From positions 496,001 to 560,000 of the forward strand of contig NZ_CP134771.1 in assembly GCF_031880315.1 (NCBI RefSeq): DNA of 64,000 bases, given 5' to 3'. The notes beneath the pieces are model-generated. The model was given only the letters and a program-made list of their open reading frames with translations. It did not search any database and was not told the DNA's origin. Shown in pieces: positions 41,299 through 47,042 of this stretch. Both the position numbers and the translations under genes were made by a program. How positions within the stretch are numbered: position 1 is the first letter of the stretch; each line of letters opens with the position of its first letter. Source of the stretch: Pseudomonas baltica. GTDB lineage: Bacteria; Pseudomonadota; Gammaproteobacteria; Pseudomonadales; Pseudomonadaceae.

Positions 41299-43026
41299 TT
41301 GAAATTGGCAAACCCCACCCGGACGCTGATCGCATCGTTGTTGATCGTGAGTTGGACCTCGGTGCAAGCCGCCTCGGTAGCACCGGTCGCCGCCGAACAC
41401 GGCATGGTCGTCACCGCCCAGCACCTGGCCACCGAAGTCGGCGTCGATGTCCTCAAGCACGGCGGCAACGCCGTCGATGCCGCCGTCGCCGTGGCCTATG
41501 CACTGGCGGTGGTCTATCCCGCCGCGGGCAATATCGGTGGCGGCGGCTTCATGACCCTGCAACTGGCGGACGGCCGCAAGACCTTTATCGACTTTCGCGA
41601 AAAAGCCCCGCTGGCAGCCACCGCCAACATGTACCTGGACAAGGACGGCAAGGTCATCCCCGGGCTGAGCACCGACGGCCACCTCGCGGTCGGCGTGCCG
41701 GGCACCGTGTCAGGCATGGAATATGTGCTGCACAAATACGGCACCCAGCCACGGGCCAAACTTATCGCCCCGGCCATCGCCTATGCCGAAAAAGGCTTCG
41801 TCCTCGATCAGGGTGACGTCGACATGCTGGGCACCACCACTGCCGACTTTCGCAAGGACAGCAAAGACCTTGCGCCGATTTTCCTGAACCACGGCGAGCC
41901 GTTCAAGGTCGGCGAAAAACTGGTGCAGAAGGACCTCGCCAAGACCCTGCGCAGCATCTCCAGCAACGGCGCCGACGGTTTCTATAAAGGGTGGGTGGCC
42001 AAGGCCCTGGTGGACTCGAGCAAGGCCGGCGACGGCATCATCACCCAGGCCGATCTGGACAAATACCGTACCCGCGAGCTGCCACCGGTGGAGTGCGACT
42101 ACCGTGGTTATCACATCGTCTCGGCGCCGCCACCGAGCTCAGGCGGCGTAGTGATCTGCGAAATCATGAACATCCTCGAAGGCTACCCGATGACCGACCT
42201 GGGCTATCACTCGGCCCAAGGCATGCACTACCAGATCGAAGCCATGCGCCACGCCTACGTGGACCGCAACAGCTACCTGGGCGACCCGGATTTCGTCAAG
42301 AACCCCGTAGCCCATCTGCTCGACAAAAACTACGCCGCCAGCCTGCGCGCCGCCATCGTGCCGAACAAGGCCGGTGTCTCCGCCGAGCTCAAGCCCGGCG
42401 TCGCCCCGCACGAAGGCAGCAACACCACCCATTACTCCATCGTCGATAAATGGGGCAACGCCGTGGGGGTCACCTACACGCTCAACAACTGGTTCGGCGC
42501 GCGGGTGATGGCGAGCAGCACGGGGGTCATCCTCAACGACGAGATGGACGATTTCACGGTCAAGGTCGGCGTGCCGAACATGTTCGGCCTGGTGCAGGGC
42601 GAGGCCAACGCCATCGCCCCGTACAAGACGCCGCTATCGTCCATGAGCCCGACCATCGTCACCAAGGATGGCAAGCCGCTGATGGTGGTCGGCACGCCGG
42701 GGGGCAGCCGGATCATCACCGCGACCCTGCTGACCATGCTCAACGTGATCGACTACGGCATGACCATTCAGGAAGCCGTGGATGCGCCGCGCTTCCACCA
42801 GCAATGGATGCCGGAGACCACCAACCTGGAGCCGTTCACGGTCAGCGCCGATACGCGCAAGATTCTTGAAAGCTGGGGCCACAAGTTCACCGGCGCACAA
42901 CCGGCCAACCATGTGGCAGCGATACTGGTAGGGGCACCCGCGCTAGGCGCCAAGCCGGTGGGCGATAACAGGTTCTATGGCGCCAATGACCCACGGCGCA
43001 ATACGGGCGAGGCGTTGGGGTACTGA
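41299..43026 (+). CDS. ggt: Gamma-glutamyltransferase precursor
   Basis: A 575-residue periplasmic gamma-glutamyltranspeptidase. TTG at 41299 is taken as start: it follows GGAAGAAGAGAG and opens a good signal peptide (KLANPTRTLIASLLIVSWTSVQA); the long upstream frame only shadows the GNAT gene. Family landmarks are GGNAVDAAVAVAYALAVVYP, GNIGGGGFM, FREKAP and the autoprocessing site SNTTHYSIVD, where the Thr becomes the nucleophile of the small subunit, followed by SSMSPTIV and GTPGGSRI. It hydrolyses glutathione and transfers gamma-glutamyl groups. Confidence 0.93.
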   Translation: MKLANPTRTLIASLLIVSWTSVQAASVAPVAAEHGMVVTAQHLATEVGVDVLKHGGNAVDAAVAVAYALAVVYPAAGNIGGGGFMTLQLADGRKTFIDFREKAPLAATANMYLDKDGKVIPGLSTDGHLAVGVPGTVSGMEYVLHKYGTQPRAKLIAPAIAYAEKGFVLDQGDVDMLGTTTADFRKDSKDLAPIFLNHGEPFKVGEKLVQKDLAKTLRSISSNGADGFYKGWVAKALVDSSKAGDGIITQADLDKYRTRELPPVECDYRGYHIVSAPPPSSGGVVICEIMNILEGYPMTDLGYHSAQGMHYQIEAMRHAYVDRNSYLGDPDFVKNPVAHLLDKNYAASLRAAIVPNKAGVSAELKPGVAPHEGSNTTHYSIVDKWGNAVGVTYTLNNWFGARVMASSTGVILNDEMDDFTVKVGVPNMFGLVQGEANAIAPYKTPLSSMSPTIVTKDGKPLMVVGTPGGSRIITATLLTMLNVIDYGMTIQEAVDAPRFHQQWMPETTNLEPFTVSADTRKILESWGHKFTGAQPANHVAAILVGAPALGAKPVGDNRFYGANDPRRNTGEALGY

Positions 43027-43056
43027 TCGGATTTTTTGCGCCAGCCAATCCGGCGC

Positions 43057-43141
43057 CTTCGCCGCCGAACGCGCACCCTTGCTCCCACAGGTACGCAACT
43101 GTTGATACTGTGGGAGCAAGGGTGCGCGTTCGGCGGCGAAG
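43057..43141. repeat. REP-like inverted pair with perfect 34-bp arms
   Basis: Arms at 43057-43090 and 43108-43141 are exact inverted copies (core GAACGCGCACCCTTGCTCCC) around a 17-base spacer just after ggt, where the element may also act as its terminator. Confidence 0.8.
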
Positions 43142-43184
43142 AGGCCCGCAAGCCAAAGAGCGAATCAAGCCCCGCAATCAATCC

Positions 43185-43307
43185 TCAGCGGTCATAGCGC
43201 CAGCAGCAGTGCCCGCCCCCATGCCCGTGGTCCGGAAAGATGATGCAGCCACTCAGGCTGCTGAGCATCATCACGGTGGCCAGCATCAGTGCAAATCGAC
43301 GGTACAT
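43185..43307 (-). CDS. Small His/Cys-rich lipoprotein (40 residues)
   Basis: A complete short gene on the minus strand: ATG at 43307 preceded by GAGGAA at good spacing, product beginning MYRRFALMLATVMMLSSLSG with lipobox LSGC (Cys21). The mature peptide is only 20 residues and is unusually rich in His and Cys (PDHGHGGGHCCWRYDR), which suggests metal binding at the outer membrane. It is divergent from the YXWGXW/sigma-factor operon and shares its promoter region, so it is likely part of the same stress module. No family name is known to me. Confidence 0.7.
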   Translation of the reverse strand: MYRRFALMLATVMMLSSLSGCIIFPDHGHGGGHCCWRYDR

Positions 43308-43389
43308 GGTAATTCCTCATGGCAGTAATGACGGTGCAGCCCATCAACGTATCGGGCTACACACATTCAACGCCGCTCCCCGGCAAAAT

Positions 43390-43424
43390 CCGTCGGTGCA
43401 AAAATAATTATTTTTTCGCGACGG
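43390..43424. promoter_or_regulatory. Nested palindrome between the His/Cys lipoprotein and the YXWGXW operon
   Basis: A perfect 16-bp AT palindrome (AAAAATAATTATTTTT, 43400-43415) is enclosed by CCGTCG (43390-43395) and CGACGG (43419-43424). A further palindrome, CGTTCACCGTGAACG, lies at 43460-43474. The position between divergent genes favours operator function over termination. Confidence 0.5.
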
Positions 43425-43491
43425 ATTGCGCCAGCCTTATGCGTTCAACTCAGCAGCTACGTTCACCGTGAACGCTGCATGAGGAGATGTC

Positions 43492-43812
43492 ATGAGCCTT
43501 CTGGCCAAGTTGCGATACGCCCTGATCATTCCCGTGGCCGCCTCCGCGCTGGCAAGCGCGTTGGCAAGTGCACCGGTCCTGGCCCGCGAATATATGCAGC
43601 AACCTCCGCCGCCACCGATGCGTGAAGAGCGGGCGCCGATGGATCGCCAAGGCTATGCCTGGGATCGGGGCCACTGGAAGTGGGACGGCCATGCATATTT
43701 CTGGTTCCCCGGTCATTGGCAAGAGATGCGCGGCCCGGGTCGTTGGGAACCAGGACATTGGGAAGCACGCGGCCCGCAGTGGTTCTGGGTTGAAGGGCAC
43801 TGGTTGCGCTGA
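43492..43812 (+). CDS. YXWGXW-repeat exported protein, four repeats
   Basis: A 106-residue protein with a Sec signal (LIIPVAASALASALASAPVLA). The mature part is a proline stretch followed by four tandem aromatic units of the form W-x-x-G-H-W: YAWDRGHW, YFWFPGHW, GRWEPGHW and WFWVEGHW. YXWGXW proteins are small envelope proteins of unknown function found in many proteobacteria. It starts the plus-strand operon that continues with an ECF sigma factor. GAGGAG precedes the ATG. Its regular Trp/His spacing could bind metal or glycan. Confidence 0.8.
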   Translation: MSLLAKLRYALIIPVAASALASALASAPVLAREYMQQPPPPPMREERAPMDRQGYAWDRGHWKWDGHAYFWFPGHWQEMRGPGRWEPGHWEARGPQWFWVEGHWLR

Positions 43813-43884
43813 GAGCCCTGGCACTGAGCGATCACGTGCCGAGCACCCTGGCGATGAACCATTTTGCGCGTTGTTGTCTGTATC

Positions 43885-43911
43885 GAGGGAGACACACAGA
43901 GCGTCTCCCTC
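43885..43911 (+). terminator. Hairpin between the YXWGXW and sigma-factor genes
   Basis: GAGGGAGAC and GTCTCCCTC form a perfect 9-bp stem with a 9-base loop. No U run follows, so it may act as an attenuator or mRNA-processing signal separating the abundant repeat protein from the regulator genes. Confidence 0.45.
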
Positions 43912-43964
43912 CCGCATCTGTGATGCGAGGCTGCCGATCCAGTCAACCGCCCGAGAAACACCCT

Positions 43965-44546
43965 TTGAACGAACCTGATCCGGACGTCGAGTTGCTGGCC
44001 CGTATCGGCCACAACGAACCGGCCGCCATCGAGGAGATGGTCCAGCGCAAGTTGCCCCGCCTGCTTGCGCTGGCCAGCCGCCTGTTGGGCGATGCCGAGG
44101 AAGCCAAGGATGTCGCTCAGGAGAGCTTTGTACGAATCTGGAAGCACGCTGCGCATTGGCGGGCCGGCCAGGCACGCTTCGATACCTGGCTGCATCGGGT
44201 GACGTTGAACCTGTGCCACGACCGTTTGCGGCGACGCAAGGCGCAGCCACTGGCTGATGAGGACGATACCCGCGAACTGGCCGACACCGCGCCGCGCCCG
44301 GACGAACAACTGGAGGCTGCCGCGCAGAGCCACCAGGTCGCCGACGCACTGGCGGCCCTGCCCGACCGTCAGCGTGAGGCCATTGTGTTGCAGTACTATC
44401 AGGGGCTATCGAATATCGAAGCGGCAGCGCTGATGAACATCAGCGTCGAAGCGCTGGAAAGCCTGTTGTCACGGGCACGCCGCACGCTGCGCAACACTCT
44501 GGCCGCTTACCACGGCGACGCCCGACCAGGAGGGGGACAACGATGA
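43965..44546 (+). CDS. ECF-family RNA polymerase sigma factor
   Basis: A 193-residue ECF sigma factor. Region 2 is visible as LPRLLALASRLLGDAEEAKDVAQESFVRIWKHAAHWR (about residues 27-63) and region 4 as LAALPDRQREAIVLQYYQGLSNIEAAALMNISVEALESLLSRARRTLR. TTG at 43965 is preferred as start because it gives MNEPDPDVELLARIG, the usual ECF beginning; the longer frame adds an implausible basic leader. Its stop overlaps the next gene by ATGA. It probably responds to the downstream membrane and periplasmic proteins and drives both YXWGXW genes. Confidence 0.88.
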   Translation: MNEPDPDVELLARIGHNEPAAIEEMVQRKLPRLLALASRLLGDAEEAKDVAQESFVRIWKHAAHWRAGQARFDTWLHRVTLNLCHDRLRRRKAQPLADEDDTRELADTAPRPDEQLEAAAQSHQVADALAALPDRQREAIVLQYYQGLSNIEAAALMNISVEALESLLSRARRTLRNTLAAYHGDARPGGGQR

Positions 44547-44974
44547 CACCGCACCGATTTAGCGAGTTGGCCGAGGCCTATGGCGGTGATCTGCGACGTT
44601 GGCCCAGTGCCGAGCGCGACGCTGCGCATGCGCTGTTGGCGAGCGACGACGGCGCGCTGAACGCGGTACTGCGCCAGGCCAGCTGGCTGGACGGGCAGCT
44701 CGATCGCCATCCATCGCCAGCCGTGTCGCCACACCTGGTGCACCGGATCGTTGCCGATGCCACGCGAGCGCCTTCCTTCTGGGCTCGATCGTTTTCCTGG
44801 CTGTTCGGCGCCAGCTTCGTCGGCGTTGGCCTGGCCGGTGTAGCCGCCGGCATCCTGGTGGCCTCCTTGACCTTGCCGCTGGCGGTGGAACATGAAGCCT
44901 TGCCCAATGTATTCGACTCAGGCGATGGCGACGTCGTGCTCAACCTGGATGCTGCCGAGGAAACCCCGCAATGA
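44543..44974 (+). CDS. Single-pass membrane protein in the anti-sigma position
   Basis: A 143-residue protein with a soluble N-terminal part (about residues 1-85), one membrane helix (FSWLFGASFVGVGLAGVAAGILVASLTLPL, roughly 88-115) and a short acidic periplasmic tail. The N-terminus RFSELAEAYGGDLRRWPSAERDAAHALLA resembles small membrane proteins next to ECF sigma genes rather than a classical zinc-binding anti-sigma domain (no HxxxCxxC). Translationally coupled on both sides by ATGA overlaps, so an anti-sigma role is inferred from position. Confidence 0.7.
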   Translation: MTPHRFSELAEAYGGDLRRWPSAERDAAHALLASDDGALNAVLRQASWLDGQLDRHPSPAVSPHLVHRIVADATRAPSFWARSFSWLFGASFVGVGLAGVAAGILVASLTLPLAVEHEALPNVFDSGDGDVVLNLDAAEETPQ

Positions 44975-45414
44975 CGGCCCGTCGACGTTTTACCCCGCTG
45001 CTCGCGGCATCCTTGCTGCTCAATGTTTTTTTGCTCGGCAGTATCGGCGGTGGCCTGTACCACTGGCGCAATCAGCAAGCAGTGCTCGAGCCGGACCATG
45101 CGCATGGCTTGCGCCAGGCCCTGGCCCAACTCCCCGAAGCCAGGCGCCACGAGTTGCGCCTGGCCCTACGCCAGAGCCGCAGCGACAATCAGAATCTTTT
45201 GGCCGCTCGCCGCGAGGCACGACAGGCGGTGGTCCAACGCTTGCGTGAGCCACGCCTGGACCGCGAGGCCCTGGACCGCGACCTGAGCAAGGCCCGCGAA
45301 GCCGACGGCGCCCTGCGCGCGCAGGTCGACACGCTGCTGGCTGACTTCGCCGGCAACCTCGCGCCGGACGAACGACAGACCCTGGCTCAATCGGTGTACT
45401 CGCGGGATGAGTGA
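44971..45414 (+). CDS. Periplasmic heavy-metal sensor (CnrX/Spy-like, Metal_resist family)
   Basis: A 147-residue membrane-anchored protein: a helix at LLAASLLLNVFLLGSIGGGLYHW is followed by a periplasmic all-helical domain rich in Arg, Ala and Leu (LRQALAQLPEARRHELRLAL ... VDTLLADFAGNLAPDERQTLAQS). The two long antiparallel helices match the CnrX/ZraP/Spy-type Metal_resist family, which binds metals or unfolded proteins. A few histidines (YHW, DHAHG, RRH) sit near the N-terminal helix. In CnrYXH-like systems such a protein controls the anti-sigma/sigma pair, which is the proposed role here. Confidence 0.78.
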   Translation: MTARRRFTPLLAASLLLNVFLLGSIGGGLYHWRNQQAVLEPDHAHGLRQALAQLPEARRHELRLALRQSRSDNQNLLAARREARQAVVQRLREPRLDREALDRDLSKAREADGALRAQVDTLLADFAGNLAPDERQTLAQSVYSRDE

Positions 45415-45438
45415 AACCTGGGATATCGGGGCTGAATG

Positions 45439-45546
45439 TTCCGCCCTTTTCGCGGGCAAGCCTTGCTCCTACAGTGGAAGCAGAGCCTAAGCAGTACACC
45501 TGTGGGAGCAAGGTTGCACGTTCGGCGGCGAAGAGGCCCGCAAGAT
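45439..45546. repeat. Chimeric REP-like element
   Basis: TTTCGCGGGCAAGCCTTGCTCC on the left and GGGAGCAAGGTTGCACGTTC on the right form an imperfect inverted pair that mixes the arm types seen at 40,327 and 43,057. Confidence 0.6.
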
Positions 45547-45638
45547 TTGTACGGATACCGACGGAATTCCCCAACAGCCGCGTTTAACTCCCGTACACCG
45601 CGCTAAAGAGTGCCGGTGACTGTCCACAAGGATCTGCC

Positions 45639-45854
45639 ATGAAGCCGATTTTCCGTGCCACCCTCGCTGCTACCCTGATTGCCGCCTCGCTGGCAGGCTG
45701 TGTCGTCGAGCAACCCCGCCCCCACCGTCCACCACCGCCACCGGTTGAAGTCGTGCCGGTCATGCCCGCGCCCGGCCTGCACTGGGTCCCCGGACACTAC
45801 CGTGAAGGCGAGCGCGACTGGATCTGGGTCCCGGGCCACTGGCGCGAGCGCTAG
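45639..45854 (+). CDS. YXWGXW-repeat lipoprotein, two repeats
   Basis: A 71-residue lipoprotein with lipobox LAGC (after LAATLIAASLAG). After a proline-rich spacer (QPRPHRPPPPPVEVVPV) come two W-x-x-G-H-W/Y units, HWVPGHY and WIWVPGHW. It shares the repeat type with the 43,492 gene but is membrane-anchored. A motif GCGTTyAACTC occurs upstream of both (43441-43451 and 45580-45590). It lies after the sigma operon and a REP element, suggesting its own promoter under the same regulator. Confidence 0.78.
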   Translation: MKPIFRATLAATLIAASLAGCVVEQPRPHRPPPPPVEVVPVMPAPGLHWVPGHYREGERDWIWVPGHWRER

Positions 45855-46003
45855 ACCGGTGCCGTGACAACCGGGCGCTATGGCGCCTGGTTCGATCTGG
45901 ACGCATTCTGCAGGACAACATCGGCAACCCTGTGCCAAATGCGACGCAATCTAACTGAACGCGTCAACAGACTAGGCACTGTCACACGAGTCCCCCATAG
46001 TAG

Positions 46004-46045
46004 AGCGCTCACCCGTGCCCGGAGCTCAATCCGGGCGCGGGCGCT
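46004..46045 (+). other. Hairpin in the choX leader region
   Basis: GCGCTCACCCGTGCCCGGA and TCCGGGCGCGGGCGC pair with one wobble and a small bulge around a 6-base loop, 44 bases upstream of choX. No T run follows; a leader structure or terminator of upstream transcription are both possible. Confidence 0.45.
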
Positions 46046-46088
46046 TTATGGAAATGATGGTCACATCCATTTTTCAGGGAACTCTCGA

Positions 46089-47042
46089 ATGCATAAAATC
46101 AAGTCATTGCTTGCTGCAATTTCGCTGTGCTCTCCCCTGCTCGCCGCGCCCCTGGTGGCCCAGGCAGCCGACCCGCAAAGCTGTGAAACCGTGCGTTTGT
46201 CCAACGTCGGCTGGACCGACATTTCGGTCACCACCGCCAGCACCGCCGCCGTGCTCGAAGCCTTGGGCTACAAGACCACCACGACCTTGCTGGCCGCCTC
46301 GGTAACGTTCAAGTCGATGCAAGACGGCAAGATCGACTTCTTCCTCGGCAACTGGATGCCCTCAGGCGTCGATGTCATCGCCCCCTACCTGAAAGCCGGT
46401 ACCGTCAGTACCGTGCGCGTCAACTTGCAGGGCGCCAAATACACCCTCGCCGTGCCCGACTACGTGTATGACGCCGGCGTGCACAGCTTTGCCGACATCG
46501 CCAAGCACAAGAAGGAATTTCGCGGCGAGATCTACGGCATCCAGCCCGGTGGCGGCGGCAACAAGCTGATTCAAGGCCTGATCGACGGCAACAAGTTCGA
46601 TCTGGGCAGCTTCAAGATGGTGCAGTCCAGCGAAGCCGGCATGCTTTCCCAAGTCGATCGCGCCACCAAGCGCAAGGACTGGATCGTGTTCCTGGGCTGG
46701 GAACCGCATCCCATGAACACCCACTACAAGATGAAATACCTCGAGGGTGGCGATGATTCCTTCGGCCCCAACTATGGCGGTGCCACCGTCGAAACCATCG
46801 AGCGCAAAGGCTATTCGGCTTCCTGCCCCAACGTCGGCAAACTGCTGACCAACCTCGAATTCAGCCTGCCGATGGAAAACGAGCTGATGGACAAGGTCCT
46901 GACCGACAAGAAGAGCCCCGAAGTCGCCGCCCGCGAGTGGATCAAGGCCAATCCGCAGATCCTCGACAAATGGCTGGCCGGGGTGACCACCCTGGATGGT
47001 CGGCCAGGCCTGGATATCGCCAAGGCCGCGCTGAGCAAATAA
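46089..47042 (+). CDS. choX: Choline ABC transporter substrate-binding protein
   Basis: A 317-residue periplasmic binding protein of the OpuAC/ChoX class. The signal peptide is LLAAISLCSPLLAAPLVAQAA; the ligand-cage region is SNVGWTDISVTTASTAAVLEALG and FLGNWMPSG, followed by IYGIQPGGGGNKLIQ and FLGWEPHPMNTHYKMKYLEGGDDSFGPNYGGA, with the aromatic residues that box quaternary ammonium groups. It is monocistronic, as in other pseudomonads where orphan choline, betaine and carnitine binding proteins share one permease. Choline is more likely than betaine from the WTDI and NYGG contexts. Confidence 0.85.
   Translation: MHKIKSLLAAISLCSPLLAAPLVAQAADPQSCETVRLSNVGWTDISVTTASTAAVLEALGYKTTTTLLAASVTFKSMQDGKIDFFLGNWMPSGVDVIAPYLKAGTVSTVRVNLQGAKYTLAVPDYVYDAGVHSFADIAKHKKEFRGEIYGIQPGGGGNKLIQGLIDGNKFDLGSFKMVQSSEAGMLSQVDRATKRKDWIVFLGWEPHPMNTHYKMKYLEGGDDSFGPNYGGATVETIERKGYSASCPNVGKLLTNLEFSLPMENELMDKVLTDKKSPEVAAREWIKANPQILDKWLAGVTTLDGRPGLDIAKAALSK

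Follow-up and report, generated by a model that had tools for sequence, protein, structure and literature searches.

CnrYXH of Cupriavidus metallidurans consists of an extracytoplasmic function (ECF) sigma factor, a membrane anti-sigma factor and a membrane-anchored periplasmic sensor, CnrX. According to the available part of PMC7689651, Met123 of CnrX is needed for signalling and is conserved among CnrX homologues. The RpoE8 operon of Azospirillum brasilense is described, in the portion of the report available, as a trio of sigma factor, hypothetical protein and periplasmic heavy metal sensor (PMC12826043). Here we describe a six-gene locus of Pseudomonas baltica that has the same three kinds of components as CnrYXH, with a sensor of probably the same fold. 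It lies at positions 43,185 to 45,854 of a 64,000-nucleotide stretch of contig NZ_CP134771.1 (assembly GCF_031880315.1, positions 496,001 to 560,000, forward strand). This whole stretch is called the window, and positions below are window positions. A sequence-only reading, made without database searches, had claimed an ECF envelope module here, and our analysis supports it: quite likely, the locus encodes a compact ECF sigma regulon that is autoregulated and serves the cell envelope. All six open reading frames (ORFs) were found where that reading had placed them, with a tiny lipoprotein on the minus strand and, on the plus strand, a WXXGXW protein (WXXGXW1), the sigma factor, an anti-sigma candidate, the sensor and a second WXXGXW protein (WXXGXW2).

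A common promoter, CGACGGA-N15/16-CGTTNAA, was noticed by eye ahead of WXXGXW1, the lipoprotein and WXXGXW2 and was confirmed by script. Pattern scanning placed the promoter of the WXXGXW1-sigma-anti-sigma-sensor operon (CGACGGA-N16-CGTTCAA) at 43419..43448 on the plus strand, that of the lipoprotein (CGACGGA-N16-CGTTGAA) at 43366..43395 on the minus strand and that of WXXGXW2 (CGACGGA-N15-CGTTTAA) at 45559..45587 on the plus strand. The pattern CGACGGA-N14..16-CGTTNAA has 3 matches in the window and 0 in 100 shuffles. In the 6.63-Mb genome a tighter pattern, with GCGTTNAA at its end, has just 3 matches, all in the module; a looser one has 4, and the fourth falls inside a 307-codon open frame. 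A scan for the sigma-70 consensus found none ahead of the module genes, and its sole match lies downstream at 46071. The six genes had been read as one unit. They do stand together, but three transcription units with one promoter type are preferred to a single one. The further claim that both WXXGXW proteins and the lipoprotein are sigma-dependent outputs appears likely from this shared promoter.

A profile built from 31 sensors was searched against 398 Pseudomonas genomes, the window's own included, and the sensor was present in 57 of them (window's own counted). Named species with the sensor include P. grimontii and P. azotoformans, and a strain of P. simiae carries a homologue of WXXGXW1. 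The loci of all 57 sensor-positive genomes were searched with profiles built from part of those loci. WXXGXW1, sigma factor, anti-sigma candidate and sensor occur together in 57/57, and the promoter stands ahead of WXXGXW1 in every one. The divergent tiny lipoprotein is present in 52 of the 57 loci and carries CC(W/Y)R in all 52, so the overlooked small lipoprotein of the sequence-only reading is a real gene. Its promoter is exact in 51 of the orthologues and off by one base in the 52nd. WXXGXW2 lies downstream in 24 of the 57 loci, with its promoter in 22 of the 24. The five genomes without a neighbouring lipoprotein are G023, G051, G224, G250 and G442. Only in G023 has a lipoprotein of the family been located elsewhere, 288 kb from the module and with the same promoter ahead of the gene. 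Synteny across Pseudomonas had been proposed as a check, and the core is present at each sensor-positive locus of the genus and is also found outside it. The promoter and the gene order are beyond chance, because none of 100 shuffles gave a match and because the same order of genes is found in the genus where sensors are 52-58% identical. These loci establish the gene order, the conservation of the promoter and the motif-defined content of the regulon.

An even sample of the class gave a sensor match in 8 of 369 genomes, the window's own and seven weak ones. Three of the weak matches (L135-L137) lie beside a distant sigma factor without the motif, and the other four (L138-L141) have no sigma match. 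The CGACGGA promoter motif was absent from all four loci that have distant sigma factors beside Metal_resist sensors (L030 and L135-L137). Two Pseudomonas loci deserve separate mention. At G414 (L122) the sensor and WXXGXW1 are each broken into two frames, with the promoters and remaining genes still in place. At G051 (L026, 4338 and 5399) the WXXGXW1 promoter is duplicated: an identical copy stands about 1.06 kb upstream, and no ORF of at least 25 codons that begins with ATG is found within 300 bases.

Genome-wide, the pattern has at least one match in 138 of the 398 Pseudomonas genomes. By hand tally, at least two matches occur in all 57 sensor-positive genomes versus 12 of 341 sensor-negative ones, and at least one in 81 of the 341. 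In one of those 12 (G261) the sigma factor, WXXGXW1 and lipoprotein lie at a contig end, where the module is cut. The 57 sensor-positive genomes hold 172 matches versus 31 for the reversed pattern, and about 131 of the 172 are within the module. CGACGGA-N15/16-CGTTNAA is a conserved motif concentrated at the module, and we infer that it is recognised by the module's own sigma factor. Another sigma factor might instead read the promoter, the cluster being merely co-inherited. This would agree with the matches in sensor-negative genomes, and the pairing of sigma factor and motif was itself made from sequence alone. However, at least two matches accompany the sensor across the 398 genomes, and the motif tracks the sigma factor across classes and is absent at the four loci of related trios. 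Recognition by another sigma factor is thus very improbable.

The regulon extends past Pseudomonas, further than the sequence-only reading had seen. Nine of the 12 distinct sensor-matching records were used (SBC1, CCGE531 and a second AB2/73 record were left out). The module was found in plasmid or chromid records of Caballeronia sp. SBC2 (L131), Burkholderia cenocepacia (L132) and B. arboris (L144). Six further records of this kind, one of Ensifer adhaerens (L142) and five of Rhizobium (L143, L145-L148) including R. tropici CIAT 899, gave the sigma/anti-sigma/sensor trio. Identity to the window's sigma factor is 68% in Caballeronia, 60% in B. cenocepacia, 55% in Ensifer and 51% in R. tropici. 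The order in Burkholderiaceae is WXXGXW1, tiny lipoprotein, sigma, anti-sigma, sensor, DUF1800, DUF1501, WXXGXW2. Their tiny lipoprotein, whose sequence was inspected in L131 and L132, contains no His and no pair of Cys residues, and its homology to the Pseudomonas one is not established (best profile E 0.003). All six Rhizobiaceae loci carry DUF1800-DUF1501, in reverse direction in Ensifer, and none has a WXXGXW match within about 12 kb. CGACGGA-N15/16-CGTT precedes both the sigma/WXXGXW1 operon and the DUF1800 operon at 9/9 non-Pseudomonas loci. The full promoter matches at 17 of these 18 sites, the exception being Rhizobium lusitanum with CGTTAGA. Because the promoter is shared by Pseudomonas, Burkholderiaceae and Rhizobiaceae loci, the whole appears to be a small ECF regulon under its own control, made up of exported proteins and spread over alpha-, beta- and gammaproteobacteria.

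Whole-record scans of five of these records gave 16 promoter matches versus 1 for the reversed pattern. Ten are the module sites. Three more, one in each of the 3 Burkholderiaceae records scanned, precede the same exported alpha/beta-hydrolase-like protein, which has 389 residues (L181, L183, L187) and a Pfam score slightly under the cut-off. In R. tropici (L191, ~2034) the promoter stands ahead of an 84-residue exported Trp/Tyr/His-rich protein with the GCG_CRPN domain (NF047412). Of the two leftover matches, W02:1111851 sits in a 552-codon open frame; the other is W05:1124412. A plasmid search for WXXGXW1 gave 5 records. B. stagnalis (L133) was rejected as a carrier of the module, having the WXXGXW protein only, with no sigma, anti-sigma or sensor match and no motif. 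DUF1800 genes were also found in 4 of 14 module-positive versus 0 of 4 module-negative Pseudomonas genomes tried. The fetched loci (L149-L152) are without the CGACGGA motif, so these genes were not counted as regulon members and perhaps represent a different branch of the DUF1800-DUF1501 pair.

The DUF1800-DUF1501 pair and the hydrolase-like protein, both behind the same promoter, raise the question of a response to the surface polymer or cell wall. Aromatic proteins would then bind or cross-link polysaccharide or peptidoglycan, and the DUF pair would be the older, enzyme-like part. Aromatic motifs are repeated in the outputs, and DUF1800-DUF1501 is reported, in the available text, to adjoin bacterial chitin synthase genes (PMC5122149), which we count for such a response. 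On the other hand, no polymer-binding or polymer-making domain was recognised in the family scans, the structure model of WXXGXW1 matches no solved fold, and the hydrolase match falls short of its cut-off. We regard a polymer response as possible but rather doubtful.

A second tiny lipoprotein, ...GGCAVYPAYPGPCCYRPYYHSYYYHPYYHPYY..., was found far from the module by way of the extra promoter matches. This detached lipoprotein has 54-55 residues, CCYR or CCYH, and HPYY repeats (L070-L073, L080, L154-L156, L158-L160). When 80 genomes (57 with the module, 23 without) were searched with it, strong matches (E 2.3e-25 or better) occurred in 8 of the module-positive genomes and in no module-negative one, and the promoter precedes the gene in all 8. 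Another 20 weaker matches are the modules' own lipoproteins, all inside module loci. Because the search weakly recovers them, the detached and module lipoproteins are related. The 57 genomes contain about 41 off-module matches, of which 20 were inspected. Nine stand before detached-type lipoproteins and nine within open frames of at least 260 codons; of the remaining two, one (G420) is in no clear context and the other (G230) lies before a 71-codon ORF. The product of that ORF (L074 at 1056) has a signal-like start and an acidic tail.

The genes of the window have the following features; signal peptides, lipoboxes and membrane segments were all judged by eye. The tiny lipoprotein (43185..43307, minus strand) has 40 residues, a lipobox LSGC and the mature core HGHGGGHCCWRY. 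Its mature part of 20 residues, CIIFPDHGHGGGHCCWRYDR, contains 3 His, 3 Cys, 4 Gly and 1 Trp. WXXGXW1 (43492..43812, plus strand) is a 106-residue protein with Trp/His repeats and a signal peptide, and scores 28 bits for PF12779 against the Pfam cut-off of 18. WXXGXW2 (45639..45854, plus strand), a 71-residue lipoprotein, barely exceeds the same cut-off with 18.7 bits. The sigma factor (43965..44546, plus strand) is above the curated cut-offs of TIGR02937 (110.1 versus 42.9 bits) and NF004113 (280.2 versus 208). Its longest ORF runs from GTG 43836, but TTG 43965 is most likely the start, because TTG is found at the same place in 11 Pseudomonas relatives and in Caballeronia. In these 11, which are the relatives with the sigma frame printed (3 others gave another frame), the TTG stands before ..DPD(V/L/I)ELL. 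Sigma sequences were trimmed at guessed starts for alignment. The anti-sigma candidate (44543..44974, plus strand) has one hydrophobic segment and an N-terminal AYGxDLRRWP signature that is conserved in the alignment; it matched no Pfam or NCBIfam family. ATGA overlaps couple sigma to anti-sigma (44543-44546) and anti-sigma to sensor (44971-44974), and the coupling of the three regulatory genes seen earlier is therefore present at both junctions.

The sensor (44971..45414, plus strand) is membrane-anchored and periplasmic and scores 69.6 bits for PF13801 Metal_resist against a cut-off of 29.2 (E 3.5e-19). We take CnrX itself to be a member of PF13801. A structure model and fold search gave a fold like CnrX/CpxP/Spy, with CnrX and NccX among the top matches, and the fold class probably fits CnrX. 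To this extent the earlier suggestion of metal or envelope-damage sensing stands. A metal-ligand site does not follow from it. Neither the 31-sequence nor the 60-sequence alignment has a conserved Met around residues 120-128, the place of CnrX Met123, and no conserved multi-ligand metal site was found in the sensor. The sole common His of the periplasmic part, H45, occurs in 55 of the 60 aligned sensors, a set with an outgroup of just 3 sequences, and is absent from the two Burkholderiaceae sensors aligned (L131, L132). Taken as a metal site, the CnrX-like sensor of the sequence-only reading was not confirmed. The label 'periplasmic heavy metal sensor' is no proof of metal sensing when the ligands are missing.

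These data bear on whether the system responds to metal in the manner of CnrYXH. In that case a metal of the periplasm, for example copper, would be bound by the sensor or a partner, and buffering by the His/Cys lipoproteins and WXXGXW proteins would take the place of efflux. The Metal_resist family and CnrX-type fold of the sensor, the widespread H45, the HxHCC core of the module lipoprotein and the CC pair and HPYY repeats of the detached one are all in favour. The missing counterpart of Met123, a residue required in CnrX (PMC7689651, available part), the loss of H45 in L131 and L132 and the Burkholderiaceae tiny lipoprotein are against it. So is the gene content: no RND (resistance-nodulation-division) efflux operon was found at the motif sites of the window's genome or in the non-Pseudomonas loci read, and no efflux or metal-oxidase gene was noticed at the regulon sites read. 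An efflux pump had been excluded from the outputs before, and the loci read agree. Overall we consider a metal response unlikely, and we think that the signal is envelope disturbance rather than direct binding of nickel or cobalt by the sensor. Because the Burkholderiaceae lipoprotein is without His and a Cys pair, metal buffering is unlikely as the common denominator of the outputs; aromatic residues are the better candidate. Small metal-binding effectors, as claimed earlier, are possible, although that lipoprotein counts against them as far as it is a homologue.

The predicted Pseudomonas outputs are very small proteins, with signal or lipoprotein peptides recognised by eye and a high content of Trp, Tyr, His or Cys. 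Methionine-rich periplasmic scavengers under ECF control offer an analogue in logic for a further role, sacrificial oxidant scavenging by exported Trp/Tyr/Cys-rich proteins. Oxidisable residues dominate the outputs, and the 84-residue protein of R. tropici adds an aromatic one behind the same promoter; however, no reductase gene was noticed in the loci read, and we consider scavenging as the main purpose quite improbable. Since the Pseudomonas outputs appear exported and have many Trp, Tyr or His residues, they are most likely small protective or binding envelope proteins, not efflux components. We rated general envelope protection first among their roles, followed by polymer binding, metal buffering and oxidant scavenging.

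We propose the following mechanism for the autoregulated envelope regulon. The AYGxDLRRWP-type anti-sigma factor would keep the sigma factor at the inner membrane, as gene order, size and the one hydrophobic segment suggest. By analogy with CnrYXH, the CnrX/CpxP/Spy-fold sensor may relay envelope disturbance through the anti-sigma factor and so free the sigma factor. The freed sigma factor would recognise CGACGGA-N15/16-CGTTNAA and transcribe its own operon, WXXGXW1 included, together with WXXGXW2 and the divergent Cys-Cys lipoprotein. In some species it would also transcribe a detached Cys-Cys/Tyr/His lipoprotein, and in Burkholderiaceae and Rhizobiaceae the DUF1800-DUF1501 pair. Instead of pumping a substance out, such a response would furnish the periplasm and the outer membrane with small proteins that protect or bind. 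In its widest form, which we put forward tentatively, this is an undescribed envelope response of alpha-, beta- and gammaproteobacteria. One ECF sigma factor, using a promoter code of its own, would provide a coat of tiny aromatic, His/Cys-rich lipoproteins and WXXGXW proteins for the periplasm and outer membrane, as sacrificial, metal-buffering or structural armour; the trigger would be a sensor of CnrX/Spy fold that has lost direct metal sensing, and new small lipoproteins would join by acquiring the promoter.

Several observations concern the rest of the locus. A hairpin is predicted in the 5'-leader of the WXXGXW1 transcript (43452..43478, plus strand). The window's leader folds with a minimum free energy of -11.9 (z -2.7), and the mean z is -2.2 over 44 distinct leaders versus simple shuffles. 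Pairs were counted in 14 of the 44 leaders, every third of the list except that of the window, in which the stem is offset by one base. In these 14 leaders 83% of cells pair, and 18 cells carry compensatory changes on both sides; 0 of 500 shuffles reached this level of pairing. RNAalifold on all 44 distinct leaders gave no consensus hairpin, and an RNA-family scan of 42900-46200 gave no match. A 45-nucleotide repeat, CTGTGGGAGCAAGG...CCCGCAAG, 96% identical between copies, flanks the sigma operon at 43052-43152 and 45498-45544. One copy is half of a long palindrome, and the repeat looks like a Pseudomonas intergenic repeat. A PADLOC defence search, run on the five module proteins other than the sigma factor, gave a single weak match, of the sensor to LeoA with E 0.0078, which we judged to be chance.

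The regulon gives a common candidate regulator to several kinds of proteins of unknown function, namely WXXGXW, DUF1800, DUF1501 and the tiny Cys-Cys and Tyr/His lipoproteins. Its promoter can be searched in any genome, so that genes of 40-55 codons, which are easy to overlook, become recognisable as regulon members. Being small and self-contained, it is also directly testable.

As far as the open-licence PMC literature was searched, the promoter and the regulon are apparently undescribed. For P. aeruginosa SbrIR and PA3285, considered as counterparts by description only, the text found contains no link to the module; in the available part, PA3285 is grouped with transcriptionally regulated, non-canonical ECF factors. 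The RpoE8 operon has the same three-gene arrangement as the module, by description rather than sequence, and the portion of its report available does not mention a WXXGXW protein, a tiny lipoprotein or a promoter motif (PMC12826043). In the available parts of PMC6180224 and PMC3511301, ECF26 of Sinorhizobium meliloti resembles the module in its downstream membrane anti-sigma factor and small regulons, and rpoE1 has a putative lipoprotein gene upstream. The ECF26 promoters, in our reading of the table there, are GGAAT...GTC, in contrast to CGACGGA...CGTTNAA of the module; the RpoE1/RpoE4 targets concern sulfite oxidation, and no Metal_resist sensor is named (same sources). Both window WXXGXW proteins belong to the same repeat family, PF12779, as BcpO (NF037971), and score 25 and 36.5 bits for NF037971, under its cut-off of 80. 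The module differs from CnrYXH in its gene order, which is sigma/anti-sigma/sensor. Unlike CnrYXH, its sensor does not conserve the Met123-type site of CnrX, and the module has its own promoter motif and small exported outputs instead of an efflux pump.

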